Shown piece by piece: positions 8,615 through 58,768 of a DNA stretch of 64,000 nt. The translations under genes were made by a program, and so were the position numbers. The stretch is from Burkholderia sp. GAS332 (GTDB taxonomy: Bacteria > Pseudomonadota > Gammaproteobacteria > Burkholderiales > Burkholderiaceae): the NCBI GenBank assembly GCA_900142905.1, contig FSRV01000003.1, forward strand, positions 558,001 through 622,000, read 5' to 3'. The notes under the pieces are model-generated. The model had not been told where the DNA came from and did no database searches. It was given only the letters and a program-made list of their open reading frames with translations. Within the stretch, counting starts at the first letter, position 1, and each line of letters starts with the position of its first letter.

Positions 8615-8670
8615 GGTTGCTCCAGAATAGGCGCGGAGCAATCCCCTTGCGGGGGACTGCCCGCAAGGGG
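8615..8670 (-). promoter_or_regulatory. Leader hairpin plus SD-burying helix before dpdA-like gene
   Basis: A strong stem (CCCCTTGCGGG / CCCGCAAGGGG, 8643-8670) is followed on the minus strand by TTGCTCC (8635-8641), which pairs perfectly with GGAGCAA (8617-8623). The latter contains the Shine-Dalgarno sequence of the dpdA-like gene. Same architecture as the other leaders in this window. Confidence 0.7.
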
Positions 8671-8689
8671 GAAAAAGGAATATTGGCGA

Positions 8690-10498
8690 TCAGGCTGCCA
8701 ACGAAAAGAGATCACCAGCAGGTGATGCAAGAAGCGCGTTGTGAGCGCCGTCGGATATGGCGCTAAGGATCAGATGACGGTCCAGCTCGGCTGGCGTCAC
8801 GTTCAGACGTTCGGCAAGGCGCGCGAAGTACTGCCCGCGCTTCGCCATGATCTGATACCGCTGCGACATCCGGTGCGGCAGGCGAAGAATCGCCTCGTTC
8901 AGCCAGAAACGCGCCGATTCGATGGCGGGATGCAGTTGAGCCCGTGTGTACCAGTCGTGCTCGAAAGTGCAGGTCACGAACTCGCACGCTGATTCTGCGT
9001 CGACGTCGAGCTGGTCGCGCTCCTCAAAGTACACCACCCGTTCCCCCGCCGTCGTCTGCGCGTGGGCCGACAGGCGGTCCGGATGCCGGTGTGGATTCCA
9101 TTGCTCGGCGCCATAGTCCCGCAGGCCATCTGTGGGTGCTTCGGCGTCAAACTCGCCCACCTTGAACCACCCGTGTACCGGAACCGGCACTTTGGGATAG
9201 GGCGTGACGTCCGGAATCCGGTACCGCCGGCCGAGCCGATGCACTTCGAACCACACCGAGACCGCCGGGAAAGCGTGCGGCGCATAGTGATGCATCGACA
9301 GCATGAAGTCGATCGCGACCAGTTGCGCCGGCGTGATCATCTCGAACTGCACGTCGCACAGTTCGCGGTTCGCCGGCGTGTCGGCAATACGCCCGGTCGC
9401 GAGATCCGCCTCGTGCTGGCCGGCGCGCTCGACTTCGAGCGCGTCCAACGTCAGGAGATATCCCAGAAGACTGATCCTCTCCTGGTACGAGAGCACGTCA
9501 GGCTTCACACGGATGTAGCCCGCCGCACTAAGGGAGCGACCAACGAGCTCGCGTCTGCCGAGATCCCATTGCGTGGCCTGGAGGTAATTGCGAAAGCGGT
9601 TGAGACCGGCGAGATGAGCGTGTTCCGGCTCTTTCACCATGGACTCCATCGACTTGTCACGCTCGCCCGTCACGCAGCAGAACGCACATCCGAAGCGGGA
9701 CCCGCACGGTGAGCGGTTTCCCGTTTCACCGAGCACGACGCCGCACGTGCCATCGTTACCGGCCCGATAAAGGTCCGCCATCCGCTCGATCGAGCGCGCG
9801 GATATCGCAGCCGCGAACGGGCTGTTAGCGCCATCGCCGAACATCGCGAGCATGAGCCACACGTCGTCGACTGACCAGTCCGCGATCGGCGAGTAAGTCA
9901 GATCGCCGTCGGCATTCCGGACAGGACGCACGGCACTCTCGGCCCGCGCCAGCATTGCGGTACCGCGGGATGCGCTTTCGCCGAAGCGATTGCCCAGCAC
10001 CGTGATGATCTCGCGGTCTCCGCTGGCCACAACGTCATGCTGGAGCTTCGCGCGAAGTCTGTTCTGTGGCTCGACTTTCCAGTCGGCCGCACACGCCCGG
10101 ATCCGCTTGCCCTTACGCACACCGTTCTCCGGTGTGCGTACGAGCGTGCCGCGCCCGATCGTCGATACAACGAACTGGGCAGCGAGAGACGGCGTTGCCA
10201 CATGAACCGTGACCGGCAGTCCTTCCGCGTCGGCGTGATCCTGGATCTCCGCCAGCATAAGATCGAGGTGACTCAAAAGGCTCGGATTCTCGATCATGGT
10301 GTTGGCCGACATGATGAAGTGATCGGCTTGCGGCTGCCCCTCATCAGCGACACGTCGGATCGCTTCCAGCAGAAGGATCGTTGTGCATCCCGAGTCCTTG
10401 CCGCCGCTCGCGGTACCGCAAAGTGAGTGCCCCGAAAGAATCAGACTCACCATCGCGGCGATAGCCGCTTCCATCATGATCAGAATATCTTCGAACAT
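8690..10498 (-). CDS. DndC-like PP-loop (PAPS-reductase/ATP-pyrophosphatase) enzyme
   Basis: 602 residues, start at 10498 behind GGAG. The PP-loop SGGKDS is at residues 31-36. The sequence then follows DndC: an LGNRFGES block (168-175), and a cysteine cluster CGSRFGCAFC (265-274) with C136 and C252 as further candidate Fe-S ligands, then SMESMV. DndC works in DNA phosphorothioation by activating the substrate with ATP. Here dndA, B, D and E are absent. Instead the gene lies 76 bases upstream of a TGT-like dpdA gene, suggesting it acts on the same DNA base. The long C-terminal half (residues about 330-602) is not recognised. Its activity, sulfur transfer or another adenylation, is an open inference. 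Confidence 0.75.
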   Translation of the reverse strand: MFEDILIMMEAAIAAMVSLILSGHSLCGTASGGKDSGCTTILLLEAIRRVADEGQPQADHFIMSANTMIENPSLLSHLDLMLAEIQDHADAEGLPVTVHVATPSLAAQFVVSTIGRGTLVRTPENGVRKGKRIRACAADWKVEPQNRLRAKLQHDVVASGDREIITVLGNRFGESASRGTAMLARAESAVRPVRNADGDLTYSPIADWSVDDVWLMLAMFGDGANSPFAAAISARSIERMADLYRAGNDGTCGVVLGETGNRSPCGSRFGCAFCCVTGERDKSMESMVKEPEHAHLAGLNRFRNYLQATQWDLGRRELVGRSLSAAGYIRVKPDVLSYQERISLLGYLLTLDALEVERAGQHEADLATGRIADTPANRELCDVQFEMITPAQLVAIDFMLSMHHYAPHAFPAVSVWFEVHRLGRRYRIPDVTPYPKVPVPVHGWFKVGEFDAEAPTDGLRDYGAEQWNPHRHPDRLSAHAQTTAGERVVYFEERDQLDVDAESACEFVTCTFEHDWYTRAQLHPAIESARFWLNEAILRLPHRMSQRYQIMAKRGQYFARLAERLNVTPAELDRHLILSAISDGAHNALLASPAGDLFSLAA

Positions 10499-10500
10499 AT

Positions 10501-10550
10501 GTGCTCCAATTTGATTGGAAGCACCCCCTGTGGGAGATGCTCCCACAGGG
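10501..10550 (-). promoter_or_regulatory. Leader hairpin plus SD-burying helix before dndC-like gene
   Basis: A perfect 11-base stem, CCCTGTGGGAG / CTCCCACAGGG (10526-10550), precedes GTGCTTCCAA (10515-10524). That segment folds onto TTGGAGCAC (10501-10509), which carries the GGAG ribosome site. An imperfect GCGTC/GACG stem lies further upstream at the end of the preceding gene (about 10578-10594). Confidence 0.7.
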
Positions 10551-10582
10551 AATGAAGGCCGACTTTCGTCGGCCGGGTCACG

Positions 10583-10984
10583 TCAGGTTGACGCGTCAGG
10601 TGAAACCGCCCGCTCGACGATCTGGACGTGTTTCATCCATTCGTCGGCCGAGGGAAGTGTGCTGATCAGTTCAACGGCGCCCATCTCTGGCGCGTCGATC
10701 TCAACGTATGTCTCGTTATTGATCGCGGCCTGCAGATAGAAGAGGATCGCAAGGACTGCAACACCGTGCTGATCGGCGATCGCGCTAACCGATTCAACGC
10801 CGGCGAGCAATTCACTCGTGAAGCGCGATGCGAGGACCGACCGTTGCATCTTCACGATCGCCTCGATGGCCATATCCGACTGATCCCCCGGACTGTCGAC
10901 GGGAACGGCTGCAGCGTCTATTGCGCCTGCGGAAGCCAGGCAGTTCAATACGTCGTCGGTGAAATCCGAACAGGAATAGGTCAC
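10583..10984 (-). CDS. Hypothetical protein, 133 aa, in the DNA-modification operon
   Basis: GTG start at 10984 preceded by CGGAGCAAAAC. The protein is helical and acidic, with SDMAIEAIVKMQRSVLASRF and VAVLAILFYLQAAINNET, the latter moderately hydrophobic but short for a membrane anchor. No family is recognised. It lies between the exported nuclease and the DndC-like gene. Confidence 0.55.
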   Translation of the reverse strand: MTYSCSDFTDDVLNCLASAGAIDAAAVPVDSPGDQSDMAIEAIVKMQRSVLASRFTSELLAGVESVSAIADQHGVAVLAILFYLQAAINNETYVEIDAPEMGAVELISTLPSADEWMKHVQIVERAVSPDAST

Positions 10985-11047
10985 GTTTTGCTCCGGGTAT
11001 GTTTCGAAGCGGACAAACGTCCCGTGCGGGGCATTGCCCGCAGAGGG
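10985..11047 (-). promoter_or_regulatory. Leader hairpin plus SD-burying helix before the 133-aa gene
   Basis: Stem CCCTCTGCGGG / CCCGCACGGG (11021-11047) is followed by GTTTGTCCG (11010-11018), which can pair with CGGAGCAAAAC (10985-10995) containing the ribosome site. One bulge is needed. Same order of elements as at 8615, 12155 and 15103. Confidence 0.55.
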
Positions 11048-11067
11048 ATTTGAAGGGAATGTCAGCC

Positions 11068-11625
11068 TTACGGCGCGCGGTAAGGCTCGCCGAGCCTGGA
11101 AACCTGTGTCCAGTTCTCGAGATACCGCGCCGCAAGTTCCGTGTCGCCACGGATCACCAGCGCGTTTTCCGAGTTGTATCGGGCGGCCATCGACGTGTAG
11201 TTGTAGCTACCCGACTCGACCGTTGCGTCATCAGCAATCAGATACTTGCTGTGCTGAATGGCGAACGCTTTCACGACCCGCACAGGAACGCCGGCGTATG
11301 CCAGAGCGCCTAGAGCGGCACGCGCGCGGCCGCTACGGTCTTCATCGATATTGCTCCGATAGTCGACCGTCACGGCCACGTCGACGCCGCGGCGTTTCGC
11401 CAGAATCAGCGCGCGCACAACGGGCTCCGCGGTGAACGAGTACGCCATCACGCGGATCGATCGCTTTGCGCCATTGATGGTGCCGAGGACCAGGCGTTCG
11501 GCGCCGCCGTCAGGCGAGAAGGCCACCTGGACATCTGCTGCAGCGCATGCTGGCTGCACCATAAGAAGGCACCCCGCCGACACGAGCGCCGCGGCGACCG
11601 CTGCGATGATGGTCTGTTTCTTCAT
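11068..11625 (-). CDS. Exported phospholipase-D-superfamily nuclease (Nuc type)
   Basis: 185 residues with an N-terminal signal peptide (basic MKKQ, hydrophobic core, cleavage probably after ACAA). The single HKD motif reads IQHSKYLIAD, followed by SGSYNYT, the form found in the plasmid nuclease Nuc and in NucT. Such proteins form dimers sharing one active site and cut DNA without needing a metal ion. The signal peptide places it in the periplasm. It lies within the operon of DNA-processing genes. Nuc of plasmid pKM101 is a known relative; its benefit there is unclear. Confidence 0.85.
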   Translation of the reverse strand: MKKQTIIAAVAAALVSAGCLLMVQPACAAADVQVAFSPDGGAERLVLGTINGAKRSIRVMAYSFTAEPVVRALILAKRRGVDVAVTVDYRSNIDEDRSGRARAALGALAYAGVPVRVVKAFAIQHSKYLIADDATVESGSYNYTSMAARYNSENALVIRGDTELAARYLENWTQVSRLGEPYRAP

Positions 11626-11962: not shown

Positions 11963-12154
11963 TCAGGCAGCGCGCTTCTGAACTTCGCCGGCAGGTACCG
12001 CGCGTTTCGTGATCCACTCGCCGTCTTCCAGAACGTCATGCAGGAGCGTGCCGTTCAGTTCGTACGTGTGGGTCGTTCCGACGCGCGGTTGCGCCTGGCG
12101 GATGGACACCGTTTCAGCCGATGTCCGCGCGTTGCAGTTAAATTTCGATTTCAT
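11963..12154 (-). CDS. Hypothetical small protein, 63 aa
   Basis: Start at 12154 (MKSKFNCNARTS) behind CGAGGAACGCC; the upstream extension runs through the leader hairpin and is not coding. The product has a strand-rich middle (THTYELNGTLLHDVLEDGEW). No family is recognised. Confidence 0.5.
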   Translation of the reverse strand: MKSKFNCNARTSAETVSIRQAQPRVGTTHTYELNGTLLHDVLEDGEWITKRAVPAGEVQKRAA

Positions 12155-12212
12155 GGCGTTCCTCGTAAAAAAAGACCGAGGCACGCCCCTGTGGGGAGCA
12201 TTCCCCACAGGG
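12155..12212 (-). promoter_or_regulatory. Leader hairpin plus SD-burying helix before the 63-aa gene
   Basis: A perfect 11-base stem CCCTGTGGGGA / TCCCCACAGGG (12187-12212) is followed by GGCGTGCCTCG (12177-12187), which pairs with CGAGGAACGCC (12155-12165), the segment carrying the Shine-Dalgarno bases. A run of seven T lies in the loop. Confidence 0.7.
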
Positions 12213-12233: not shown

Positions 12234-14555
12234 TCAGGCTGCGAGCGCTTCGACGTCGATAACAGCGTCAGCCTCCGAAATCAGTTCGGGTGTTTGCGAG
12301 ATAAAGAACTCCCGCTCGTACCCACCCTGCTTCAGCACTTCACGCTTCATGCGCATGAACTGCACCTTGCGCTTTGGATCGAGTGGACCATCTGACTCGT
12401 CGCTGAACAGCGTCTGATACGGCTGCCCGGCGTTGCGTGCGGAATACAGTGCAATGCCGCGCGTCAGACACTCGTTTATCCAGACCTTCTGGCCACCGGA
12501 CATCACTGATACCGCTTTGGTGTTGTCGTTGTCGGCGTCGTGCACGAGGATCTCAAATCCCTCGCGCAGTTCGCCACTGGTCAACTCACGTTGGGTCTGA
12601 ACCTCAACCGTAAAGCGCATGCCATAGCACGCCAGCAGGAGATCATTGACCGTTTGCGTGAGTGCCGGACCTGCGTCGTCGATCGTCAGGGCGATGACCC
12701 CGTCGTTGCCGAGGCCCTTCGCAGTCAGCTTCCATCGTGCAATCTCGTCGGATATCCGGTCGGCGCGCGATTGCGTTGCGTCGAAACCGGACAACTCCTT
12801 CGCCATCGCATCGCGTTCAGCCTCACGGGTCGCCTGTGCGCGGATCAGTGCTTCGATCCGCGCGTCGATCGCCACAGTCGCTTCGCGGTTGGCCGTCAAC
12901 TGACGGTCAAGCTCCGCGATCGCACCTGTAACATCGACCGCCGCGAGACGCGCGGCTTCCGATTCGACCTCGATCAACAGGGTATTCAGACGGGTCGTCT
13001 CCGCCTCCCGGCGGACCAGACCTTCCTGCTGCCCGGTCTCGAGAGCCGCCAGTTCCTGCCGGGCAACGTCGAGACCACTGACAGCCGCATCGAGCAACGG
13101 CTTACGCGCCGCCAACTCCGTCGCCTTCTGGAAGTCCAGGCGCGCCGCCGCAAGCGCGGCGTTGACGGTACGCAGTTCAGCCTGCTTTGCCGCGAGTTGC
13201 GCGACCTGAGGCGTCAACAGCTCCGCCTGCTCCCGTTGCTGCCGGAAGTTTTCACGAAGTTTTGTCAAGGAAACGACCTGCTCGGCCGCTTGCGATGAGG
13301 CGTTTCGCGCCTGTGCAAGCAGCGGACACGTGGTGTGCATCTCGTGCCCAGCGCAAGGAACCTCGCTTATCACCGCCGCCTGTAGCTGCAGCGTCTTGAG
13401 AAGAGTCGCCTGCGACGTTCCCTGCGACTGGAGCCCGTTAAGACTGGTCGTCAGGGAGGTCAGCGACAGCCGCTTCGTTTCAAGCTCAGCGATAGATGCC
13501 TGGAGTGGCTCGACCCGCGATTCCTCACGGCCGATCCGCAACTGGGCATCATCGCGCGCGGTAGCTGCGCCGAGGATTGCGTCGCGCTGCCGCAGCGTCG
13601 CCTCATGTCCGGCGATGGTCTGCTGGATAGCGGTCCGCCGTTGATTCGCGCCTTGCGTTGCCGCGCTCTGCTCATTGGCCACTGTCTTCAGCGAGCCGGA
13701 TAGCTCGTTGCGCCGGGCAGCCAGTTCGCGAAAGCGCCTCTCGACAGCCGCGTTCTCACCCTGTTTCGCAACAAGGGAAGCACGCTGAGTATTGAGGTTC
13801 GCCGAGGTCGAATGCAAGGTTTCCCGATCCTGCCGGGCCTTCGCAAGCGCCTGTTCATCAGCCACGATTGCGCGTTCGGTTTCTGCTATCCGCGTGCGCT
13901 TACCAGACAGAGCAACAAGTTCCTGTTGCACCGCCGCGAGCGTCCGGCCGAGCACCTTCGCTACCTCGCCGGCTTTCGCCGACAACGCACGCAGGTGATC
14001 GATCTTCAGCAACTCGGCGAGCAACCCCTTGATCTCGCTCGCGCCGTATGAGGCAAGCGGACGCCGGTTCTGTGCGGAGAACACGCTGGTAAAGAACGAC
14101 TCCAGCGAGCCGCAGATCGCCTCAACACAACGGTCGTAGGTCTCCCCCTTCCCGTCGGACACAGTGCCGTCAGGTAGCGTGAATGGAGTCCACGTGCCGT
14201 CGGACGCGAACCAGGCCAGGTAGTACTCGGCCTTGCCGACCTTGCCCGGTTTGCGGAAAGCGAATGACGAGCGGTAGCGGATACCGTCGTGCTCCCATTC
14301 AAACTCCTTCGATGCCTGGGTACCGGAAATGTTGTCCCAGTACGAGAACGCGTCGACGGACAGCTTCGTCGCCCTCGAGGGCATGATCCGGTACGGATGA
14401 AGGTTGTCCATGATCGTGGACTTGCCTGCACCGTTCGGGCCTGTCAACGCGATGAGGCCAGTCGGCAGCGATTCGAGATCGAGCGTCAGGCTGTCGCGCT
14501 TCATCCCGTCCCGGACACCGTAGAACCCCTCGAGCGTCAATTTCAGAGGTCGCAT
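12234..14555 (-). CDS. SbcC/Rad50-like SMC-type ATPase
   Basis: 773 residues from MRPLKLTLEGF (start 14555; the first ten residues of the longer frame are not conserved-looking). Walker A GPNGAGKST is at 39-47, the centre is a long coiled coil with two cysteines (PCAGHEMHTTCPLL) in place of a zinc hook, and the C-terminus has the ABC signature VMSGGQKVW, Walker B region TLFSDESDGPLD and a C-terminal strand. It is shorter than chromosomal SbcC (about 1,050 residues). With the SbcD-like nuclease upstream it should form a complex that opens or trims DNA ends and hairpins. Its start overlaps the end of the upstream gene by 13 bases. Confidence 0.85.
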   Translation of the reverse strand: MRPLKLTLEGFYGVRDGMKRDSLTLDLESLPTGLIALTGPNGAGKSTIMDNLHPYRIMPSRATKLSVDAFSYWDNISGTQASKEFEWEHDGIRYRSSFAFRKPGKVGKAEYYLAWFASDGTWTPFTLPDGTVSDGKGETYDRCVEAICGSLESFFTSVFSAQNRRPLASYGASEIKGLLAELLKIDHLRALSAKAGEVAKVLGRTLAAVQQELVALSGKRTRIAETERAIVADEQALAKARQDRETLHSTSANLNTQRASLVAKQGENAAVERRFRELAARRNELSGSLKTVANEQSAATQGANQRRTAIQQTIAGHEATLRQRDAILGAATARDDAQLRIGREESRVEPLQASIAELETKRLSLTSLTTSLNGLQSQGTSQATLLKTLQLQAAVISEVPCAGHEMHTTCPLLAQARNASSQAAEQVVSLTKLRENFRQQREQAELLTPQVAQLAAKQAELRTVNAALAAARLDFQKATELAARKPLLDAAVSGLDVARQELAALETGQQEGLVRREAETTRLNTLLIEVESEAARLAAVDVTGAIAELDRQLTANREATVAIDARIEALIRAQATREAERDAMAKELSGFDATQSRADRISDEIARWKLTAKGLGNDGVIALTIDDAGPALTQTVNDLLLACYGMRFTVEVQTQRELTSGELREGFEILVHDADNDNTKAVSVMSGGQKVWINECLTRGIALYSARNAGQPYQTLFSDESDGPLDPKRKVQFMRMKREVLKQGGYEREFFISQTPELISEADAVIDVEALAA

Positions 14556-15097
14556 GGTGCTCCCCCCGGAATGGGCGAATCGCACAGGTAGTCCGACGGC
14601 AGCCAGGGCACGTCGTCATCGTTGTAGAACGAAGCTGACAGGACCGGGTCCGGACATGCTGCGACCGGGGGGACTGCGGCAGACGCCGGTTTCACGAGCG
14701 CTCCGTCAACGGCCTTCTGGACGTCGTCGCAAACTTTCGCAAACTGCTCCGACGCATGCCTGAGAACGCTGTCCCAGTTGTCGCAGCCGGTCAGAACCTT
14801 GAGTTCCCTGCCGCTCCACTGGTTGGCATACCCCGAGTTGAACGACCACAGGAGGTTTTGCATCTCGACGTCGGGAACAACGACGAGTTCGGGCTGACTG
14901 GAGTCGGTTGAGTCCGTCAGTACCAGACAGCTATCGCGTTGAGCGAGGACTGCGCCTCGATTGGCGCCAAAAGGTTGATGGAAAATGCCTGCAGTGAATC
15001 TCGCGTGGTTCATGAGATCCTGCTGCAGCAAACGGGCAGTCGCGGTTGCGTTGTAATGCCGGACCCAGTTGGAGCCAGCGGGATACAGTCCAAACAT
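14543..15097 (-). CDS. Hypothetical protein, 184 aa, between SbcD- and SbcC-like genes
   Basis: Start ATG at 15097 has GGAGTGTGACT upstream. An in-frame GTG two codons earlier is too close to that site. The N-terminal half is helical (TARLLQQDLMNHARFTAG), a Trp-rich centre follows (LLWSFNSGYANQWSGREL), and the C-terminus is acidic/Pro-rich. Its 3' end overlaps the start of the SbcC-like gene, so the two are likely translated together; it may be an accessory subunit. No family is recognised. Confidence 0.55.
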   Translation of the reverse strand: MFGLYPAGSNWVRHYNATATARLLQQDLMNHARFTAGIFHQPFGANRGAVLAQRDSCLVLTDSTDSSQPELVVVPDVEMQNLLWSFNSGYANQWSGRELKVLTGCDNWDSVLRHASEQFAKVCDDVQKAVDGALVKPASAAVPPVAACPDPVLSASFYNDDDVPWLPSDYLCDSPIPGGAPCDL

Positions 15098-15102
15098 AGT
15101 CA

Positions 15103-15205
15103 CACTCCACAGAAAAGTGGCGGAGTGCGCCCGGTAGGGATCGCTCCCCGCCAGGGTCTAAAAGAAAATGGATGCAGCGAACTGCGATCGATGCGTCGAT
15201 GACGC
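15103..15205 (-). promoter_or_regulatory. Complete three-part leader before the 184-aa/SbcC genes
   Basis: Minus strand order: stem GCGTC-atc-GACGC followed by ATCGATC (15188-15205), then hairpin CCCTGGCGGGGA / TCCCTACCGGG (15130-15156), then CACTCC (15122-15127) pairing with GGAGTG (15103-15108), the ribosome site. TATCGA, a possible -10 box, lies 15 bases upstream of the first stem (15221-15226). Confidence 0.7.
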
Positions 15206-16684: not shown

Positions 16685-16763
16685 TTTCGCCTCCGTAAAT
16701 GCAAAAAGGCCGCCCGTAGGCCGCCTCAATGGATGAACGCCGCGTCGCGGCAAGTTTAGATTT

Positions 16764-43789: not shown

Positions 43790-44848
43790 TCAGTCGCCCT
43801 GAATGATCTTTCCGATCTCTCCGCCCTGCGCGCGGACGAATGCGTCGGTGTTTGCGAGCGTCGGAGTACGACGAAGCGCATCGCGCACAAGCAGAGCGCC
43901 GAACTCGCGATGCCCACCACCGATGATTCGGTCCGTGTACGTCAGCACGCGATCGAAGTTGCCTTCGTTGGAGTACGCGGCGAGAGCCGCGGTCACCGCA
44001 TAGAGCGCCGAGGTGTTTTCCGGGATCGGGGCTGTATCGGGATTGAGCAGGATTGAATCCGGTGATGGAAGCTGCCGGTAGATTCCGAGGAAACTCATGA
44101 ACTCTGCCGCGGCTTCGCCGCCGACCGTTCCTGAGTACGAGAGCAGTTCCAGTCCCCGCGCCACAACCGGCATCGTCTTTCCGACAAATCCCCAGCTTCG
44201 TGGACTCGGCGAGTTTTCGATGTCGCGTCCTCTCTTTGGGACCGAGAGCAGATCCGGGCGGAACCGCAGGAAGGCAATCAATTCAACCGGCACATCGTTG
44301 CGAACTGCCCACGCCGTCCAGTCGTTGACCGACGGCTGTAACTCGACGACCGTCGCGAAACGCGAAATGACCGGATCGAGAATCCCCGTCACGCCTGCGT
44401 TGTCCGTTCGACGATTGGTGGCGGCGACGAACGTCACGTGCGGCGGGAGGGTATGGGTACCCACGCGTCGGGCAAGCAGCAATTGCATCTTGGCCGCCTG
44501 AACGGCCGGCGACGCCTGCCCTAGATCGTCCAGAAACCAGATGAGCGGCTTGTTGCTGTTGACCGCCCGCTCGAGATCGCCGAACGGAAGGTGCGCCGCC
44601 GTCGTGCCGTCTTTTGACGGAAACGGCAAGCCCTTGGAGTCAGTCGGATCCTCGACAACGGGATGACTGATGAGCAAATCGTGATCAGTCGCCTGCGCAA
44701 CCTGCTCGACGATGTCGCTCTTGCCGATGCCCGGACTGCCGGTGATGAGTACCGGCAGCCGTGCTGGAACGAAGGCTGTCAGCAGTTCGATCAGTTGAGC
44801 CGGATTTAAAGTGGGTCGCGTGGCGACCGGGGATGCAGGTGCGTTCAT
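43790..44848 (-). CDS. MoxR-type AAA+ ATPase
   Basis: 352 residues from ATG 44848. Walker A ITGSPGIGKSD, Walker B PLIWFLDDLGQAS, sensor-1 VTFVAATNRR and arginine finger region ILDPVISRFATVVEL, typical of MoxR ATPases. Such proteins remodel or insert cofactors into partner proteins together with VWA proteins. The downstream genes encode a helical protein and a VWA protein. First gene behind a complete three-part leader. Confidence 0.87.
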   Translation of the reverse strand: MNAPASPVATRPTLNPAQLIELLTAFVPARLPVLITGSPGIGKSDIVEQVAQATDHDLLISHPVVEDPTDSKGLPFPSKDGTTAAHLPFGDLERAVNSNKPLIWFLDDLGQASPAVQAAKMQLLLARRVGTHTLPPHVTFVAATNRRTDNAGVTGILDPVISRFATVVELQPSVNDWTAWAVRNDVPVELIAFLRFRPDLLSVPKRGRDIENSPSPRSWGFVGKTMPVVARGLELLSYSGTVGGEAAAEFMSFLGIYRQLPSPDSILLNPDTAPIPENTSALYAVTAALAAYSNEGNFDRVLTYTDRIIGGGHREFGALLVRDALRRTPTLANTDAFVRAQGGEIGKIIQGD

Positions 44849-44959
44849 GGGTTTGCCTTGGAAAAAGAAAACCCCACACGAACGACGTCCCGCAGGGACG
44901 TGGTCCCTGTGGGAAAGGTGGAATGCCGTGATACGGCGGATCGATGCGTCGAGGGACGC
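44849..44959 (-). promoter_or_regulatory. Complete three-part leader before the MoxR gene
   Basis: Minus strand: GCGTC-cctc-GACGC-ATCGA (44941-44959), hairpin CCCACAGGGAC / GTCCCTGCGGG (44889-44913), then GGGTTT (44869-44874) pairing with AAACCC (44849-44854), placing AAGG of the ribosome site in a closed loop. TAGTAC lies 11 bases upstream of the first stem. Confidence 0.72.
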
Positions 44960-44973: not shown

Positions 44974-45219
44974 CTACGGTTTCGCCTGTGCCAACGCAAG
45001 TTTCTGCGCGGCGGTGATTTTCGCTATCGGCACGCTCGTGCGACGCTCCACGATCATGCACCCGTAGAGGTCCGCAAGAGTGCGCGCCTGCGTGCAGAGG
45101 ATCAGTGGCTCATCGTCACTGACCGGCGACGGCGACCGGTTACGCCACACATTGATCGCGTTCTCAACGTCGGCGATCGTCACATGTGGCTCTTCAGGTG
45201 GTGCGGGCTGCTCGTTCAT
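44974..45219 (-). CDS. DUF3717-like small protein
   Basis: 81 residues from ATG 45219 (MNEQPAPPEEPHVT), preceded by GAGG at good spacing; ten upstream residues of the longer frame fall inside the leader helix. The core VTIADVENAINVWRNRSPS and ARTLADLYGCMIVERR match the DUF3717 family widespread in burkholderias. Function unknown. Confidence 0.75.
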   Translation of the reverse strand: MNEQPAPPEEPHVTIADVENAINVWRNRSPSPVSDDEPLILCTQARTLADLYGCMIVERRTSVPIAKITAAQKLALAQAKP

Positions 45220-45320
45220 GGGATACCTCATAATGAGTCCCACGAACAACGCCCGAGGGGACGTGTTCCCGACGGGGCAAATTGGAGCCGGAAACCGGCA
45301 GTTCGATGCGTCAGGGACGC
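45220..45320 (-). promoter_or_regulatory. Complete three-part leader before the DUF3717-like gene
   Basis: GCGTC-cct-GACGC-ATCGA (45303-45320), with TAGACT (45334-45339) exactly 13 bases upstream as a possible -10 box; hairpin GCCCCGTCGGG / CCCCTCGGGC (45251-45277); then GGGA and CTCAT (45233-45241) pairing with ATGAG and TCCC (45220-45231), closing the GAGG ribosome site. Confidence 0.75.
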
Positions 45321-46408: not shown

Positions 46409-47932
46409 TCAGGCTGCAAGCCGCACGTCCAGGACGGCCCTCGCGTACGCGAGCGTTCCATCCCTTGCCTTCAGCTTGCGCGCAAGACCGCGGGCCGGGT
46501 TCACCAGCAGGTAGACCCTGCTCGCGCCCTTCCGCTCGCTCCTGATTTCGGAGAAGCCATCCGCGATCGCCCGGTCGACGAACTCGGCGCCGTTGAGCAC
46601 AGAACCGTCTTCCACACGAAACTTCACGGTCTCCGCCTGCTCACGCGCTTCCTTCGCTTCGCGCTCGCGATCCTTCTGCGCTTGCGTCGCCACGGCCTGC
46701 TGCTCCCATTTCGCCTGCTGTGCTTCATCGAAGCCGCAAAGTGAGAAAACGGCACGGCGTCGACCCAACGGTTTGAGACCGCGGATCTTCACACCGAGCA
46801 TCTCGCGCACCACCCGTTTGCTGAGTTTGTTCCAGTCATCCGCAGTATCGAGCACCGACAGCAGGTACTCGACGTTGCGCTCAGCGAGTCTTGTGGCAAA
46901 GCGGTTCGGCCATTCGTATGTCGACCGACCGTGGTCGAGGAGTGCCATCTGGCGCTGCAGCTGATACAGCCGCTTGCTGATACGAACTTTGGCGAACTCG
47001 TCCTCGGCGCGATTGAGATCCTCGGAACGTCTGTTGTCAGCCACCAGTTCGCGCAGACGCGCGGCGAGCTCCGACACTGGCGTTCCGACATCGAGCGCAG
47101 ACATGAAACGCTCCGGTAACGGCAGTGCCTGCAGCAAACCGAGCTCATACAACCGGTTGTCGACGGCGAGCGGATCGACGTCGGCCGGCAGCACCTCCAT
47201 GGCCGCGATATACGCAGGCGCGGTTTCGCTCGAAAGCGTGATCTTCGCGTGCCGAAGCACTTGCGCCAGCGCCGCCCACTTGCGCGGAGGCAGAGCACCA
47301 CGCAGTTCCGGCAGATCGAGCAGCGGCCGCGCCCATTCCAGGTCATATTTGAATGGTTCTTCCATCGCGCGGTAGTCGGCGATGACCGATTCTGGAACCG
47401 GTCGATTAGCTACAAGCGCGTATGCGACATGCACCGCGTGCCGCCCATTCATCTGACGGCTAATGGGTTCTAGCGGACCGTTGAACCCGAACCCCAGCCG
47501 CTCCATCGCTGCCCGGTGGACGCAGTTTGAGAACTGGAAGTACTCGCCGTGAGCTTCGGCGGCTGTTTTTTCTGCCTCGATCTGGCTGGATGAAAACAGT
47601 AATCGCACGTCCTTGCCCAGGTCGAAGAGCGCCTGGAAGCTCTCCCAATGCTGCGGACGCACCTGCCAGGGTGCGGCGATCCCGCTGCCCCTGTCAAACC
47701 AGGCGATTGCGACCTCGTCGACGAGCGCCGCCGCGAAGTCTGATGCCGATTGCGTGTGACGGATTGTCAGCGCGCCATTGAAGCGGGTGACTGTCGCCGG
47801 CACGCTGTCGCGGGAAAGCTGGACGTCGGCGGTGGCCACCGTCTGCAGCGTTGGTTCGGTCTGGAACAACTGAAACACTTCAATCAACGTCTGAAGTGTG
47901 AACTGGGAAATCGGTGTGGTCAGGGTGTACAT
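46409..47932 (-). CDS. Hypothetical protein, 507 aa
   Basis: ATG 47932 behind GAGGAG. The N-terminal 70 residues are mainly beta (LQTLIEVFQLFQTE, VQLSRDSVPATVTRF), the remainder helical with a coiled region near residues 400-440 (KDREREAKEAREQAETVKF). Motif HWESFQALFDLGKDVRLL is distinctive but unknown to me. Presence in the PRTRC-linked series suggests an accessory role. Confidence 0.6.
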   Translation of the reverse strand: MYTLTTPISQFTLQTLIEVFQLFQTEPTLQTVATADVQLSRDSVPATVTRFNGALTIRHTQSASDFAAALVDEVAIAWFDRGSGIAAPWQVRPQHWESFQALFDLGKDVRLLFSSSQIEAEKTAAEAHGEYFQFSNCVHRAAMERLGFGFNGPLEPISRQMNGRHAVHVAYALVANRPVPESVIADYRAMEEPFKYDLEWARPLLDLPELRGALPPRKWAALAQVLRHAKITLSSETAPAYIAAMEVLPADVDPLAVDNRLYELGLLQALPLPERFMSALDVGTPVSELAARLRELVADNRRSEDLNRAEDEFAKVRISKRLYQLQRQMALLDHGRSTYEWPNRFATRLAERNVEYLLSVLDTADDWNKLSKRVVREMLGVKIRGLKPLGRRRAVFSLCGFDEAQQAKWEQQAVATQAQKDREREAKEAREQAETVKFRVEDGSVLNGAEFVDRAIADGFSEIRSERKGASRVYLLVNPARGLARKLKARDGTLAYARAVLDVRLAA

Positions 47933-47934
47933 GC

Positions 47935-47993
47935 TTGACTCCTCGGGAAAAATGGAGAGGCAATCACCCCGTGGGGCGATTGCCCCAGATGGG
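47935..47993 (-). promoter_or_regulatory. Leader hairpin plus SD-burying helix before the 507-aa gene
   Basis: Hairpin TGGGGC / GCCCCA with flanking C and G runs (47967-47993), then TTGCCTC (47957-47963) opposite GAGGAGTCAA (47935-47944), which carries the ribosome site. The first GCGTC stem is absent here. Confidence 0.6.
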
Positions 47994-49609: not shown

Positions 49610-50071
49610 TTAGTGCGTGACGCGCAGTCCCGAGTTGGTCGACACGAGAAGCACGTGGTCGCCCGGAGAAAACGGCTGATCATCCGGTTGCGCGACAACC
49701 AGCGTCCGACCGGCGTTCGTACGTACGATGATCTCGAGCCCTGCGTGATGCGACAGGGCCGACGAGACCTTCTGCGTTATGAAGCCGGAAGCAGCTCCGG
49801 CGATGGCGCCGGCGATGTAACGCCCGTTGCCGTTGCCGATAGTGCGGGTGCCAAGGAGCGCACCGACGCCTGCGCTCAGGAGGGAAGTCAGCCCGGAGTT
49901 ATCCGAACTGGCCTCGATCGTGATGTTGCGCACGCGAACGACTGTGCCTTCCTCGAGACTGCCCGCACGCTGGACGTCATACCGCTGGTACGTGTTCGGA
50001 GAGCCGAAGTCGGTACCGGCGCATGCCGTCAGGAGGGAAAGAAGAACGATGCTGGCGATGAGCTTGATCAT
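49610..50071 (-). CDS. SlyB/Pcp-like outer-membrane lipoprotein with glycine zipper
   Basis: 153 residues. Signal MIKLIASIVLLSLLTAC is a clear lipobox (LLTAC, lipid on C17). The middle has Gly-zipper sequences GVGALLGTRTIGNGNG and YIAGAIAGAASGF, as in SlyB/Pcp. The C-terminal part is beta-rich (GLEIIVRTNAGRTLVVAQ). Such lipoproteins stabilise the outer membrane. On a mobile element it may protect the envelope or affect surface exclusion. Confidence 0.78.
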   Translation of the reverse strand: MIKLIASIVLLSLLTACAGTDFGSPNTYQRYDVQRAGSLEEGTVVRVRNITIEASSDNSGLTSLLSAGVGALLGTRTIGNGNGRYIAGAIAGAASGFITQKVSSALSHHAGLEIIVRTNAGRTLVVAQPDDQPFSPGDHVLLVSTNSGLRVTH

Positions 50072-50233
50072 GGTTGCCTCTAAAAAAGAAGGGCAACCGA
50101 CCCGTCAGGGAGGTTGCCCTGACAGGGAAGAAAAAACGCGAGCGGTGTTTTGCCCGCAAAAGCGCCGAGGGATCGGCTGAGAGAACTGACACACCAGCTG
50201 GGCCGGTGTGGTGGGGTCGATGCGCAAATGCGC
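50072..50233 (-). promoter_or_regulatory. Complete three-part leader before the lipoprotein gene
   Basis: Variant first stem GCGC-attt-GCGC-ATCGA (50217-50233) with TAGACT (50247-50252) 13 bases upstream. Hairpin with GTCAGGG / CCCTGAC (50101-50127). Perfect helix GGTTGCC (50092-50098) with GGCAACC (50072-50078) that closes AGAGG of the ribosome site; a run of six T lies in its loop. Confidence 0.75.
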
Positions 50234-54418: not shown

Positions 54419-54426
54419 GACTTATC

Positions 54427-54956: not shown

Positions 54957-56627
54957 TCAGAACCTGAGAACCTTCGGCACCTTGCTCGCGTAGTCAAAGC
55001 CTTCGACGGCAAGCAGGGCCTCAATGACCTCTGGCTTCGATTTTGAGAACACCTTCTTGAAGTTGTCGCCAAGCGCGGCACAAATGCCTAACTCGTCGGC
55101 CAGCACCATCATCTCAGACTTGGTAATCAACTCCAGAAACTCCTTGTCGAGCTTCCAGTGCTTCTTCAGGTCCAGCTTGTGGGTTTTGCAGAGCTGCGTC
55201 AGGTAAGTGACATCGATCCCGTCGATCGCGGCGAACAGCATCCCGATCATCAGGTTCGCCTGAGCATCGGCGCTTGCCTCCTGCACGACCTCGACGGCCT
55301 TGGGCAGGTTGGCAACGGGCGCTTCTGCGCCGGCGATCCGCTCGAACAGTTTGCGAAAGACACCATCGTCAATCTGCCGGGCATGACCACTGAGCACGAT
55401 GGCGATCAGGTACTGGCGCGCCAGATCATGATTCATGCCGATGTCGGCACGCAGCGCCTTGCGCCACAGCTTCACACGATAGGACTTAACCTTCTCGGAT
55501 TCAGCCACGACCGTTGCAGACGGGTTAACCGCGGACGCCGTTTTGGCGGATGCAGCACCCGCCCCTTTCGTCGCCGGTTTGCCCTTGTCAGCGGCAGTCT
55601 TTTGCGGTGCCGTTGCAGCTTTTTCAGCCTGAATACGAGCGCCGACCTTCTTCATGTTGCAGACCGTATCGAAACACTGACCTCGATAGACCTTCCCCAT
55701 GGCGTCAGGCAGGCCGCTCACCGCAGCACCGTAGTTAGAGCAGGCATGGCAGGCTTTCGCCTGTTCCAGGCCAACGCCCTTCGGCCCTTCTACAGCGAGT
55801 TGAACGCGCGTGTTGTTGTCGCCCGCGCGTACGATGCGCACCACCTGAAACTCATCGCGCAACGGCACCGCGATCGTTTCAAGCTGCTTCTCCGTCTTCT
55901 CGTTGAAGCAGGTCCGGTTGGTGCAATTGCCAGTGGCAATCGACTCTCCGAACATCTCCGACTGGGTTGAGGAGTTGTGCGGGCACGCCGCACAGTCCGC
56001 TTTGTCAAAGATAGCGGATACGAGGGAGCAGGATGCGCTTTCGATCACCTTCTTCACGTCTGCGACCGATCGCTTTTCTGCGACAACCACAGGCAGTAGG
56101 CGATCCTGATTTTCCTTGGACAGCGCCGCAAGTAGCTCAGCATGACCAAGCAGGATCTGACGCGTGTTCAGGGCATCGAGAACGCCCGCGCTGCAGTTCA
56201 TCAACGCGAGGCGTGCATCGAGCGTCGCGCGGTTCCATCCGAAGATGCGAGCCACCTCGTCCCGATCGCCCTTGTAGATACCGACCAGTTCCGCTGCAGC
56301 AACGGCCTCTTCCGACGGTGCCATGTTGGCGCGCTGAATGTTCTCGATGACTGCCATGGCACGCGCCTCGGCATCGCCCACATCCTTGACGACGATAGGC
56401 ATGTCGTACTCCGGCCCGAGCTCCTCGCTCGCGGCCCAGTGACGGCGCCCACCAATGATGAGTTCGAAGTCGAAGTCCGGTTCGTCGATAGGCCTGACAA
56501 CGACAGGCTGAAGGATGCCGACTTCCCGGACCGAGGCTCGCATTTCGGCCATTTCGGCTGGGTCGAAATACTTCCGCGGATTGTGTGCGCGCTTGATACG
56601 TCCAACAGGATGGGTAGGTTGTTGCAT
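54957..56627 (-). CDS. PRTRC-type ParB-family protein
   Basis: 556 residues from ATG 56627. N-terminal ParB/Srx domain with GGRRHWAA (59-66) and ENIQRANMAPSEEA (95-108), then a helix-turn-helix region (about 120-145). The middle has several CxxC pairs (CAACPH, CTNRTC, CHACS, CFDTVC) that could bind zinc, and the C-terminal half is helical. The RR motif is that of CTP-binding ParB clamps. No ParA is nearby, so its role may be regulatory or in the PRTRC process. Confidence 0.85.
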   Translation of the reverse strand: MQQPTHPVGRIKRAHNPRKYFDPAEMAEMRASVREVGILQPVVVRPIDEPDFDFELIIGGRRHWAASEELGPEYDMPIVVKDVGDAEARAMAVIENIQRANMAPSEEAVAAAELVGIYKGDRDEVARIFGWNRATLDARLALMNCSAGVLDALNTRQILLGHAELLAALSKENQDRLLPVVVAEKRSVADVKKVIESASCSLVSAIFDKADCAACPHNSSTQSEMFGESIATGNCTNRTCFNEKTEKQLETIAVPLRDEFQVVRIVRAGDNNTRVQLAVEGPKGVGLEQAKACHACSNYGAAVSGLPDAMGKVYRGQCFDTVCNMKKVGARIQAEKAATAPQKTAADKGKPATKGAGAASAKTASAVNPSATVVAESEKVKSYRVKLWRKALRADIGMNHDLARQYLIAIVLSGHARQIDDGVFRKLFERIAGAEAPVANLPKAVEVVQEASADAQANLMIGMLFAAIDGIDVTYLTQLCKTHKLDLKKHWKLDKEFLELITKSEMMVLADELGICAALGDNFKKVFSKSKPEVIEALLAVEGFDYASKVPKVLRF

Positions 56628-56629
56628 TG

Positions 56630-56732
56630 CAGGTTCTCCAGAGAGGGAACCTGCCCCCGATCGGGAGTGGTTCCCGATGGGGTTTAACAGCTGGTTGCCA
56701 GGCATGCCGGCGGATCGATGCGTCAATGACGC
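56630..56732 (-). promoter_or_regulatory. Complete three-part leader before parB
   Basis: GCGTC-att-GACGC-ATCGA (56715-56732) with TATCGT (56746-56751) exactly 13 bases upstream. Hairpin CCCCATCGGGA / TCCCGATCGGGG (56654-56682). Then CAGGTTCCC (56645-56653) pairs with GGAGAACCTG (56630-56639), which carries the ribosome site. Confidence 0.77.
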
Positions 56733-56819
56733 TGAAGGTAGGGCAACGATACAGTCAGGTGTCTCTGCGTATGCAGCGGAAAGACGGAAAAAACATGGCG
56801 TCTTAGACCTGCCGCAGGC

Positions 56820-56913: not shown

Positions 56914-57981
56914 TCAAAACAGGGTCATCTGCTCGATACGATCAAAGATCGTGTTCTCGGCCTTCGCAGCACTCGCCTGCCCGGTCAGCTCTTCGAAAAG
57001 GGCTGCTATAGATGTTTGCGCGTCGAACTGCATCTCCGTGCGATCAGCATCGACCGCGACGGCGACGTTGCCTTCCTCGCGTTCAACTGCGTGATGCTGC
57101 CCCTCGCCAGACGGGGCGACCTCGGGAACGGTAAACCGTTGCCCCTGTAAGTCCGGAGCCGTCGCTCCCGGTTCATCGCAACTGCCCGGCTGCTCCGCGT
57201 ACCCGGCGACGATGCTCCTGGCCTCCGCTTCGCGTCGTCGTCTGAGTTTGCGTCCCCAACCAAGCATAACGTGCGCCGGCGTGTACCAGACACCCCATAC
57301 CTCGAGCGAGAGGGCGTTACCGTGCACGACAATGGCGGGGATACCCAACAGCGACAACTGGACATACGCCATGTGAACACAGCGTTGATCGATATCGACG
57401 CAGGTTGCATGCAGGGTCTCGGGGTAGTTCAAACCGGCCTGATGCATTGCCTGGGCCGTCGCGACCACCATTCCGGCCGACCCACACGCCGGCTCCTGAA
57501 GGGTGACGAATCCTTTCTCCCGGACGGAAGCAGCGTCGCCCACGGTCATCATGGCCATGAGATACGAGACGCTATAGGGCGTGAAGAATTGCCCCGCGCG
57601 GTCGTTCCCCAGCTCGAGCGCCATGAAGATCTCGCCGAGCACGTCGCCCAGACCATGGCCCGGAGTCCCGGGACAGCCCGGATCGCCAATCGCATCCACA
57701 CGCGTGCGATGGCACATCTGCAGCGCCGCAAACATCGCAGCAAACCGCTGGGTCTCCTCGGGCTTGTACTTGCCGACGATGTCCATGTATCGCTTCTCCC
57801 GCGCATCGAACTGAGGTTGATCAAAGCGATTGCTGAGCGCAAGGGCGCACATCTCGATGAAGTCCGAAAACACCGTGTAGGGATCGTGCGAATGCGAAAA
57901 CTCCCGCATCGACTTGATGAGTTCGGTCTTGTAGGGGTCGCCGCCCATTGCAGCGCGCTCGGCTCGCTGGCGCCGGCTCAT
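56914..57981 (-). CDS. N-6 DNA methylase-like protein without a visible NPPY motif
   Basis: 355 residues from ATG 57981, coupled to the upstream gene by ATGA. HsdM-like features: FTPYSVSYLMAMM, motif I LQEPACGSAGMVV, then VDIDQRCVHMAYVQLSLLG and VVHGNALSLEVW. At the place of the catalytic NPP[FY] there is VWYTPAHVMLG, so the amino-transfer motif IV is missing. The C-terminal 100 residues are variable. Either it binds S-adenosylmethionine without methylating, or it has a different role on the element. Confidence 0.75.
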   Translation of the reverse strand: MSRRQRAERAAMGGDPYKTELIKSMREFSHSHDPYTVFSDFIEMCALALSNRFDQPQFDAREKRYMDIVGKYKPEETQRFAAMFAALQMCHRTRVDAIGDPGCPGTPGHGLGDVLGEIFMALELGNDRAGQFFTPYSVSYLMAMMTVGDAASVREKGFVTLQEPACGSAGMVVATAQAMHQAGLNYPETLHATCVDIDQRCVHMAYVQLSLLGIPAIVVHGNALSLEVWGVWYTPAHVMLGWGRKLRRRREAEARSIVAGYAEQPGSCDEPGATAPDLQGQRFTVPEVAPSGEGQHHAVEREEGNVAVAVDADRTEMQFDAQTSIAALFEELTGQASAAKAENTIFDRIEQMTLF

Positions 57982-58358
57982 TGCTGCTCTCCAGCCGGGG
58001 CGCCGATTCCGCCGAGTTGCGTTTCCAACGCCAGCCACAGGCGGTCAAAATCCGGCGCTGTCCCCAGCAGGAGCGAGCGCTCGATATCGAAGCCTGCCCG
58101 TGCGAAGACCGCCTTACGGTCAACGACCGGCCGTGCAGCTCCGACGGCGAACTGCTGCCGTGCCTTGGTAATAATGCGATCGGCGAAGACTGAATACGTG
58201 CGCCGCAACTCCTCCACGATCTCGCCGGTACCGGGAACCCTGACGGCTGGATCGCTCATATCCGAGAAGAGACGCTTCTCTGTCGCAGCGATTGCGCTGT
58301 AGTGGCGCCACGCAGCCGTCTGTGCGTCGATGAAAGTTTCGATGAAATGGTTGTACAT
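57978..58358 (-). CDS. Hypothetical protein coupled to the methylase-like gene, 126 aa
   Basis: ATG 58358 behind AGGAG. Helical: HFIETFIDAQTAAWRHYSAIA, RRTYSVFADRIITKARQQFA. The stop overlaps the methylase start by ATGA. May be a partner subunit; no family is recognised. Confidence 0.6.
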   Translation of the reverse strand: MYNHFIETFIDAQTAAWRHYSAIAATEKRLFSDMSDPAVRVPGTGEIVEELRRTYSVFADRIITKARQQFAVGAARPVVDRKAVFARAGFDIERSLLLGTAPDFDRLWLALETQLGGIGAPAGEQQ

Positions 58359-58411
58359 GCCTGACTCCTGAAATGGACGAGGCATGCCCTTTGGGGACAT
58401 GCCCCAGAGGG
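58356..58411 (-). promoter_or_regulatory. Leader hairpin plus start-codon helix before the 126-aa gene
   Basis: Hairpin CCCTCTGGGGC / CCCCAAAGGG (58387-58411) followed by CATGCCT (58380-58386), which pairs perfectly with AGGCATG (58356-58362). The start codon itself lies in the helix and AGGAG in the loop. Confidence 0.72.
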
Positions 58412-58437
58412 ATAGGAAAAGGTGGGATCGCGCTTGC

Positions 58438-58659
58438 CTATACGGCGTAGTGCTTGCGCACTCGCCTGCGTCGCTCGGCAAACGGCCGACCGCCAGTCAC
58501 GGAAAGCGGTGCATGAAACACCAGGTGACGTAGCGCGGCTGTTCGGTAGAGCGGGCTGTACTGGTCCGTTGATCGGACGATCTGCAGAAGCACCGCCGGA
58601 GGCAGGCCGTTCGTGTGGAAGATCATCTTCACGAGGCGAAGAATTCGCAGAGATTTCAC
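58438..58659 (-). CDS. Small basic protein, 73 aa
   Basis: GTG start at 58659 behind GGGAGCACAT. KSLRILRLVKMIFHTNGLPPAV and a basic C-terminus (GGRPFAERRRRVRKHYAV). Possibly DNA binding. First gene of the methylase-type operon, after a complete three-part leader. Family unknown. Confidence 0.5.
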   Translation of the reverse strand: MKSLRILRLVKMIFHTNGLPPAVLLQIVRSTDQYSPLYRTAALRHLVFHAPLSVTGGRPFAERRRRVRKHYAV

Positions 58660-58660
58660 A

Positions 58661-58768
58661 TGTGCTCCCGTAGCTGTAAGACGGAACCACAGCCGCAACG
58701 GGTGTGAGTCCCGTCAGGGTTAAGAATAGGCTCCCGCTGCGCGGGCCAGGTCGATGCGTCGGCGACGC
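58661..58768 (-). promoter_or_regulatory. Complete three-part leader before the 73-aa gene
   Basis: GCGTC-gcc-GACGC-ATCGA (58751-58768) with TACGAT (58782-58787) exactly 13 bases upstream. Hairpin ACGGG / CCCGT (58698-58714). Then GTGGTTCCG can pair with CGGGAGCAC, which holds the ribosome site (58661-58690). Confidence 0.7.

Follow-up and report, generated by a model that had tools for sequence, protein, structure and literature searches.

Leaders with a buried Shine-Dalgarno sequence and a predicted alternative fold precede twelve genes of a conjugative element in Burkholderia sp. GAS332

The window analysed here, 64,000 nucleotides (nt) in length, covers positions 558,001-622,000 of an 805-kb contig (FSRV01000003.1) of Burkholderia sp. 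GAS332, whose 10.4-Mb genome lies on three contigs. It carries a PRTRC cassette (ParB, E, F, B and A together with ThiF, by NCBIfam), conjugation genes (VirB4-like, VirB11-like, TraG/TraD-like, TraI_2-like and TrbL-like) and a tyrosine recombinase gene at 58943-60334, which is adjoined by a weakly similar open reading frame (ORF) at 60318-62528. Its gene order is similar to that of pMSMB608, a Burkholderia vietnamiensis plasmid typed as conjugative. The cassette, the conjugation genes and this gene order together lead to the conclusion that the window is the backbone of a conjugative element with PRTRC and type IV secretion system genes. Twelve of its minus-strand genes begin with a strong C/G hairpin (H1), which is followed by a second hairpin (H2) holding the Shine-Dalgarno (SD) sequence in its 3' arm. 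We propose that each of these leaders is probably a translational switch with two predicted states, OFF by default and opened by an outside trigger.

The leaders are listed in Table 1. H1 has CCC near its start, GGG near its end (CGG in one case) and GGG or GGA on the inner 5' side, and the gap between H1 and H2 is 0 to about 10 nt, the 10-nt gap belonging to leader 45219. By reading, the SD is paired in one fold in all twelve leaders. An earlier note on this DNA had claimed at least twelve such places with eight best cases. The eight sites are all H2 helices with the SD in the 3' arm after a C/G-rich H1, and the twelve leaders counted here include 10984, 44848, 47932 and 58659 beyond those best cases. 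The start of the gene at 58.66 kb was corrected to the GTG at 58659, since translation from the ATG at 58661 would meet a stop at once. Leaders were indeed found on the DNA-modification, moxR and parB genes that the note had placed under a shared switch; the N6-methylase gene lies downstream of the 58358 leader.

Table 1. Leaders and upstream P1 hairpins in the window
Feature	Positions	Strand	Details
Leader of DpdA-like gene (7633-8613; DpdA PF23859 2e-15)	8611..8670	-	H1 8670-8643, anti-SD/H2 8642-8617, ATG 8613-8611
Leader of PAPS-reductase-like gene (8690-10498; Pfam match just under cut-off)	10496..10550	-	H1 10550-10526, ATG 10498-10496
Leader of 133-residue ORF (10583-10984, GTG start)	10982..11048	-	H1 11048-11020; descriptor
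Leader of small ORF (11963-12154)	12152..12212	-	H1 12212-12187; descriptor; similar leaders in loci L134, L143, L144
Leader of ORF 14543-15097, upstream of AAA/SMC-like gene 12234-14585	15095..15155	-	H1 15155-15130; descriptor
Leader of moxR-like AAA gene (43790-44848; AAA_5)	44846..44914	-	H1 44914-44888; descriptor
Leader of DUF3717 gene (44974-45219; PF12512)	45217..45276	-	H1 45276-45252; descriptor
Leader of ORF 46409-47932 (MYTLTTP.. family)	47930..47993	-	H1 47993-47967; descriptor
Leader of glycine-zipper lipoprotein-like gene (49610-50071)	50069..50126	-	H1 50126-50101; descriptor
Leader of PRTRC parB (54957-56627; TIGR03734 1e-214)	56625..56682	-	H1 56682-56655, H2 56654-56629, ATG 56627-56625
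Leader of ORF 57978-58358 (MYNHFIE.. family)	58356..58411	-	H1 58411-58387; descriptor
Leader of ORF 58438-58659 (GTG start)	58657..58719	-	H1 58719-58693; by eye
P1 GCGTC-N3-GACGC-ATCGA, predicted 5'-terminal transcript hairpin	15188..15205	-	leader of ORF 14543-15097
P1 of DUF3717 leader	45303..45320	-	
P1 variant, 4-nt loop, moxR leader	44946..44959	-	
P1 variant GCGC-N4-GCGC, both arms changed, then ATCGAC	50222..50233	-	
P1 of parB leader	56715..56732	-	
P1 of 58659 leader	58751..58768	-	

A descriptor was used which covers H1 and H2 only, demands CCC and GGG, and has no term for the third helix (ALT) described below. It found 10 minus-strand leaders and one plus-strand chance match in the window, against a chance level of about 0.65 matches per 64 kb (13 in 20 dinucleotide-shuffled windows, 98 in 150). 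Leaders 10498 and 58659 were missed by the descriptor and read by eye. Both are matched by models of the leader, the former by R1 (E 0.003) and the latter weakly by R2 (E 0.16).

Covariation in related genomes had been set beforehand as a test, and it is present for H1 and H2. The stems vary and keep pairing, as the earlier note had said: H1 and H2 showed 93.3% standard pairs versus 82.4% after shuffling, and a covariation of 0.323 versus 0.127 (0 of 500 shuffles), in an alignment that was fitted to the H1 and H2 structure, so that the count leans in its favour. The block order CCC-GG-CC-GGG was observed in 41 of 45 parB leaders located by protein similarity, versus 25 of 900 shuffled sequences. 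The descriptor's own matches cannot test this order, because it demands CCC and GGG.

The loop of H1 together with its inner GGG (hereafter the copy) is similar to the gene's own SD arm, which gives the anti-SD strand two possible partners. At 50071, copy and SD arm both read GGCAACC, and at 56627 the copy GGGAACC lies opposite the anti-SD GGTTCCC. At 12154, the copy GGGGAATGC and the SD arm GAGGAACGC leave the identical unpaired position against the anti-SD strand GCGTGCCTC, that is, the mismatch itself is duplicated. Pairing between copy and anti-SD strand is predicted to produce a longer hairpin, ALT, with the 3' arm of H1 (CCC..GGG) closing inside and the SD freed. ALT is often contiguous (13 base pairs at 47932 and 10498), and at 47932 it is predicted to be about as stable as H1 plus H2. 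A median of 70% of the anti-SD bases of ALT pair in H2 as well, so that the two folds are predicted to exclude each other. The earlier note had overlooked the third helix, and it had not placed the leaders on a conjugative backbone or in other elements. Of the shared translational switch suggested there, the shared SD-burying leader is well supported, and the regulation of translation itself is what we infer.

The coupling between copy and anti-SD strand was tested by permutation, each copy being paired with its own anti-SD strand and with those of other genes. For the 12 window leaders, the mean of the own pairs was -14.8 kcal/mol versus -10.0 kcal/mol for all pairs (0 of 100,000 permutations). 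The H1 3' arm as a control gave 6,517 of 20,000; the H1 5' arm (3 of 20,000) overlaps the copy and hence is not an independent control. Of the roughly 740 kb of the contig that lie beyond the window, 400 kb was sampled as 20 pieces of 20 kb each. These gave three descriptor matches with weak copy:anti-SD pairing, -4.4 to -7.9 kcal/mol, which does not exceed that of shuffled matches (mean, -7.5).

The test was also run on 160 leaders (115 unique non-parB, 33 parB and 12 from the window), which were grouped into 54 clusters by the first 30 residues, with one leader taken from each. Identical non-parB leaders had been removed before the test (123 to 115) and chance-looking descriptor matches were retained; the clustering splits some orthologs, and parB is spread over more than one cluster. 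The own pairs reached -14.6 kcal/mol versus -9.4 kcal/mol for swapped pairs (z -14.7, 0 of 20,000), and two further random draws behaved alike. The own anti-SD strand was the single best in 14 of the 54 clusters, with a median rank of 3.5, so the fit is specific, not exclusive. Controls with the H1 3' arm (z -0.7), upstream sequence (z +1.7) and coding sequence (z -0.2) stayed at chance. The comparison labelled "H2 loop" overlaps the anti-SD strand and is no control, and the own-versus-swapped result for SD:anti-SD (z -13.3) is biased, H2 being required by the descriptor.

Two unseen sets, in which no leader is letter-identical with the first 160 or with one in the other set, gave the same outcome. 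For 36 leaders of loci L151-L165 the z was -7.9 (0 of 20,000), or -7.5 after merging to 33. For 28 leaders from genomes in no model, own pairs reached -15.5 kcal/mol versus -10.4 kcal/mol when swapped (z -10.2, 0 of 20,000). In a same-genus set, 4 of 28 loci had no descriptor match and 6 of 27 leaders were identical to the first set; the remaining 21 new leaders gave z -4.5 (1 of 20,000). All three sets retain antisense mirror matches, a bias that works against the proposed switch.

Swaps were also restricted to orthologs, in eight clusters with at least four distinct members. parB (n = 18), the lipoprotein (n = 14) and the MYxL family (n = 10), which make up clusters 44, 4 and 5, each gave 0 of 20,000, and clusters 15 and 17 gave 570 and 582 of 20,000 (about 3%). 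In the A4 alignment (59 matches), which was fitted only to H1 and H2, ALT was 89.8% paired versus 86.8% in shuffled alignments and its covariation was 0.126 versus 0.087 (0 of 500 for both), and the true ALT stood above all slid versions. The leaders could instead act by static repression, where H2 sets a low translation rate, H1 protects or insulates, and the likeness between loop and SD arm has no function. No known trigger and a predicted ground state of H1 plus H2 in 144 of 160 leaders suit this explanation. We consider it unlikely, given that the copy tracks its own anti-SD strand in the 54 clusters, in the two unseen sets and in three ortholog families.

The proposed two-state switch was also examined through predicted energies. 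The cluster medians were -16.0 kcal/mol for H1, -11.9 for H2, -20.75 for the minimum free energy (MFE) of the segment over the ALT range and -30.4 for the full leader. At least four copy:anti-SD pairs were present in the MFE fold of the ALT-range segment in 156 of 160 leaders; at 12154 the segment folds as H1 instead. Apart from the leaders in the H1 plus buried-SD (OFF) state, 14 of 160 had ALT as the MFE of the full leader. When growing prefixes were folded, 144 of 160 leaders passed through lengths at which ALT was the MFE, with a median span of 16 nt where this occurred; by clusters this was 47 of 54 with their own downstream halves versus 71 of 317 with swapped ones. Such intermediates would be expected of a self-acting co-transcriptional timer, with ALT on the nascent RNA being translated briefly until H1 and H2 form. 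This timer is quite improbable, because H1 is complete ahead of anti-SD synthesis and the barrier from H1 to ALT has a median of 19 kcal/mol (nested paths), so that unaided conversion looks too slow. An RNA thermometer was rejected, as OFF is still favoured by a median of 5.7 kcal/mol at 50 °C, with ALT favoured in 10 of 54 clusters.

The three helices, the copy/anti-SD coupling, the covariation and the predicted energies are computational results; the following mechanism is our proposal for the two-state switch. Each leader would consist of six alternating blocks, C1-G1-C2-G2-C3-G3, with G3 being the SD. In the OFF state, the predicted ground state, H1 would form from C1:G2 and G1:C2, and in H2 the SD arm G3 would pair with C3 and its flank. 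In the ON state, the anti-SD strand would be captured by G1 and the H1 loop (G1:C3 and loop:flank), with C2:G2 closing inside. The product would be one long hairpin, ALT, after which the RNA, often rich in U, would present an unpaired SD and the start codon; ALT would be the translated state. The blocks constrain each other: a GGAG-type SD calls for C3, C3 for G1, G1 for C2, C2 (in ALT) for G2, and G2 (in H1) for C1. High barriers and the preference for OFF suggest that an agent is needed to hold H1 open. Pyrimidines dominate the 12 nt upstream of H1 (37% T and 29% C, with 12% G), and this stretch runs into CCC. An outside agent would tip the switch, most likely by keeping the pyrimidine stretch and the CCC at the base of the H1 5' arm unpaired; candidates are protein S1 together with the 30S subunit, or an RNA-binding protein or helicase that acts in trans. 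Such a switch would keep many maintenance and defence-type genes of the conjugative element quiet until a common signal.

The U-rich RNA after ALT could also point to transcription attenuation, with ALT as an intrinsic terminator and H1 as the antiterminator. A median of at least six T in the 9 nt after ALT was found in 16 of 54 clusters, and the mean T fraction was 0.50. However, 38 of 54 clusters have no such U-tract, the parB leader of the window has 3 T of 9, and both states would be off (terminated, or with the SD buried), making H2 pointless. U-richness at this place would also suit a ribosome-loading stretch. Attenuation is thus very unlikely, and a terminator as a general rule was rejected on the count of 16 of 54 clusters. 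Another alternative takes the complementarity between H1 loop and anti-SD strand as a loop-anti-SD pseudoknot that activates translation and that an antisense RNA directed at this loop might control. The copy:anti-SD helix directly adjoins the remaining H1 stem (0 nt) in 99 of 157 leaders, and in none of the 157 does the spacer exceed 4 nt. This spacer is too short to cross an intact H1, which excludes a pseudoknot with intact H1, and ALT gives a nested hairpin through C2:G2 instead. Pseudoknot activation is therefore highly improbable here. In the IncI-alpha/IncB repZ/repA leader, a loop is complementary to the anti-SD strand and the SD is released; it is a true pseudoknot with a long leader and a leader peptide. 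The leaders of the window share the loop/anti-SD complementarity with it and differ by adjacent hairpins that leave no room for a pseudoknot, so a repZ-type pseudoknot switch was rejected on the same spacing.

Several results weigh against the two-state switch. Three of the eight testable clusters (13, 14 and 6, of which 14 and 6 have 4 members each) gave no within-family support. The excess of ALT pair counts is modest, and two of five measures were indecisive (30 and 45 of 500 shuffles). Outer C:G pairs, present in 144 of 162 descriptor matches, are largely imposed by the descriptor and were withdrawn as evidence. In the moxR leader (44848), ALT and H2 have no bases in common, and an exclusive switch does not fit it. 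In 16 of 160 leaders, including 10498 and 12154, no prefix had ALT as its MFE. OFF is favoured by a median of 8.5 kcal/mol at 37 °C, with ALT favoured in 7 of 54 clusters, and the median predicted barriers for nested refolding are 22.6 kcal/mol from OFF to ALT and the above 19 kcal/mol from H1 to ALT. With this preference the switch needs a trigger, and none was found. Two of the five DUF3577 genes also show weak copy:anti-SD pairing (-8.2 and -7.3 kcal/mol; neighbouring genes, -14.9 to -16.2). The weakest links are the trigger, and clusters 13, 14 and 6 and moxR, which add no support.

Leaders of this design are found in other genomes. Among 46 parB-related loci, 33 of them from Burkholderia, Paraburkholderia, Caballeronia or Cupriavidus, the parB leader design is retained in loci of these four genera and of Nitrotoga, Methylophilus and Polaromonas; no ATG start was found in one of the 46 (L064), where model R1 matches. 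PRTRC parB was above the cut-off in 4 of 398 phylum-level genomes, the window's own and three others. The design was read by eye in two of these three (L084 and L086, one belonging to the window's family and the other to its order), the contig of the third ends too early, and the descriptor found none in L084, L086 or L087. In the own genome, all three R2 matches with E ≤ 0.1 fall in the window. Of 57 other same-genus genomes, 12 had an R2 leader match (E ≤ 0.01), 12 had PRTRC_B and 11 had both (Fisher 7.6e-10), an association to which the make-up of R2, with its many parB leaders, contributes in part. The order-level R2 search matched 7 of 120 genomes, the own included. With R3 (E ≤ 0.001), matches were obtained in 13 of 185 class genomes, 7 new and 6 met earlier (the own, G019, G568, G574, G607 and G635), and in 3 of 200 phylum genomes, the own and G019 among them; "class" means Gammaproteobacteria in the wide sense if the labels follow GTDB. 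On pMSMB608, the strict descriptor found three plus-strand leaders at annotated starts (10767, 16734 and 48805) and three minus-strand matches without ALT; a looser start-anchored scan, in which scores of 50 or more were reached in 11 of 140 cases and in 9 of 420 shuffled ones, has a high false rate, and no count was taken from it.

Five of 114 class-level genomes carry DUF3577, and in all five loci H1-H2 leaders lie on this gene and its neighbours. The copy:anti-SD pairing of DUF3577 is strong in three of them (-16.7, -16.7 and -16.9 kcal/mol; two loci are near-identical). These loci are apparently integrative and conjugative elements (ICEs) of Gammaproteobacteria, and their DUF3577 genes presumably resemble those of ICEclc/SPI-7-type ICEs. 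Since the leaders lie on conjugative elements, some near DNA-handling genes, the conserved unit could act as a single-stranded DNA structure in conjugation and not as RNA. We regard this as extremely improbable: the structures stop at the start codon, include the SD and lie on the coding strand, and 156 of 184 descriptor matches are on the parB strand. For the leaders as RNA switches, we tentatively suggest, as a possibility somewhat short of even, a shared post-transcriptional regulon, in which many unrelated genes per element each have their own evolved copy of the bistable device and all answer a single element-borne or host factor, which would open them jointly, e.g. on entry into a new host. 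Its elements would be the PRTRC plasmids and ICEs of Burkholderiales and the DUF3577-bearing elements of Gammaproteobacteria.

Upstream of the leaders, a P1-like hairpin was found in 64 of 160 cases, a few of them spurious, and 96 of 160 have no P1 within about 160 nt. P1 occurs in the forms GCGTC/GACGC and GCGC/GCGC; the search required paired arms, so the frequency of unpaired arms cannot be derived from it. At 55 unique P1 sites, T at about -48 and A at -7 are conserved in 48 each, and TAnnnT stands at -19 to -14 (T 50, A 49 and T 50 sites). The A at -7 relative to P1 is likely the transcription start site, in which case P1 would lie at the 5' end of the mRNA. The layout at these sites reads TTT, about 27 nt, TAnnnT, A, TCACC and P1, e.g. 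at 56715-56781 (-) in the window, with no usual -35 element, and looks activator-dependent and element-specific. P1 as a rigid dimer operator was rejected: the 55 sites differ in total length (12 to 14 nt), which suits an RNA hairpin better, a DNA role being possible too.

Of the model searches proposed in the earlier note, those with R1, R2 and R3 match leaders in related genomes, and those against Rfam gave no match over the leaders searched. With Rfam 15 (4227 families), no match over the leaders was obtained for the whole window at the gathering score, and none covering H1-H2 in 14 relative loci; relaxed thresholds on two window stretches gave sub-threshold matches only (E 3.6 and 0.21). 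No account of these leaders was present among the matches listed in the open-access literature. In lambda cIII mRNA and in the translational platforms of riboswitches, two mutually exclusive folds hide or expose the SD, and the leaders are predicted to share such folds. A riboswitch check found P1 and a variable second hairpin upstream of the leaders, with the aptamer search limited to Rfam. Unlike these known systems, the leaders have no identified aptamer, and one block design lies on many unrelated genes of an element, each with its own sequence. The leaders would thus appear to act like known bistable SD leaders, yet they match no described family of Rfam 15. RNA-level silencing and joint switching of cargo and maintenance genes on conjugative elements are poorly understood. 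If our reading is true, the leaders would be a new class of regulatory RNA, whose sequence is reinvented while its logic stays fixed, on a dozen genes of one element and in beta- and gammaproteobacterial elements. They would serve as markers for the gene starts and gene sets of these elements, and their natural diversity in sequence would provide a compact translational switch that needs no aptamer.

According to Weinberg 2010 (PMC2864571), STAXI is a repeated structured motif near genes of single-strand-binding, integrase and antirestriction proteins, mainly a pseudoknot repeated two or three times and, as proposed there, possibly single-stranded DNA. The leaders share with STAXI that they are a repeated structured motif, but they consist of nested hairpins in which the SD is embedded, with a single leader at each gene start. 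STAXI membership was rejected, because the hairpins are nested and a pseudoknot with intact H1 is excluded by spacing.

Two known RNA families co-occur with the leaders, and neither match covers H1, H2 or ALT. An exact P1 site at 19908-19925 (-), where the descriptor finds no H1-H2 leader, is followed after about 250 nt by an sbcD RNA (RF01757) at 19519-19660 (-); a gene weakly similar to SbcD-type phosphoesterases (15302-16753) is located further downstream. In locus L152, a radC RNA (RF01754, 9-157) ends 18 nt upstream of an H1-H2 leader (176-254), as if they formed one regulatory unit.

The moxR (44846-44914) and DUF3717 (45217-45276) leaders, both on the minus strand, have in common an extra CGTyGTTCGTG segment between H1 and H2. 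A similar H1 (CCGGTGGGGAT..TCCCCrCCGGG) stands before the SD at L016 5288 (-), L061 428 (+) and L081 3226 (+); the copy:anti-SD pairing at L016 (-4.4 kcal/mol) and L061 (-5.8 kcal/mol) is weak, and these may be degenerate or of a different sub-type. The DpdA-like, PAPS-reductase-like and PLD-like genes at 7633-11625 (-), the first two with leaders, form a possible DNA-modification or defence cluster.

Other features of the window were also noted. A 36-nt direct repeat (81%; 26791-26826 and 38022-38057) flanks the conjugation genes found at 28-38 kb. Near the left end of the window, a 42-nt direct repeat (83%; 3464-3505 and 5281-5322, about 1.8 kb apart) could mark an end of the element. Parts of a group II intron lie at 39568-41379 (-) around the ORF 39642-41033, with a match to a Betaproteobacteria toxic small RNA beside them at 39190-39249 (+).

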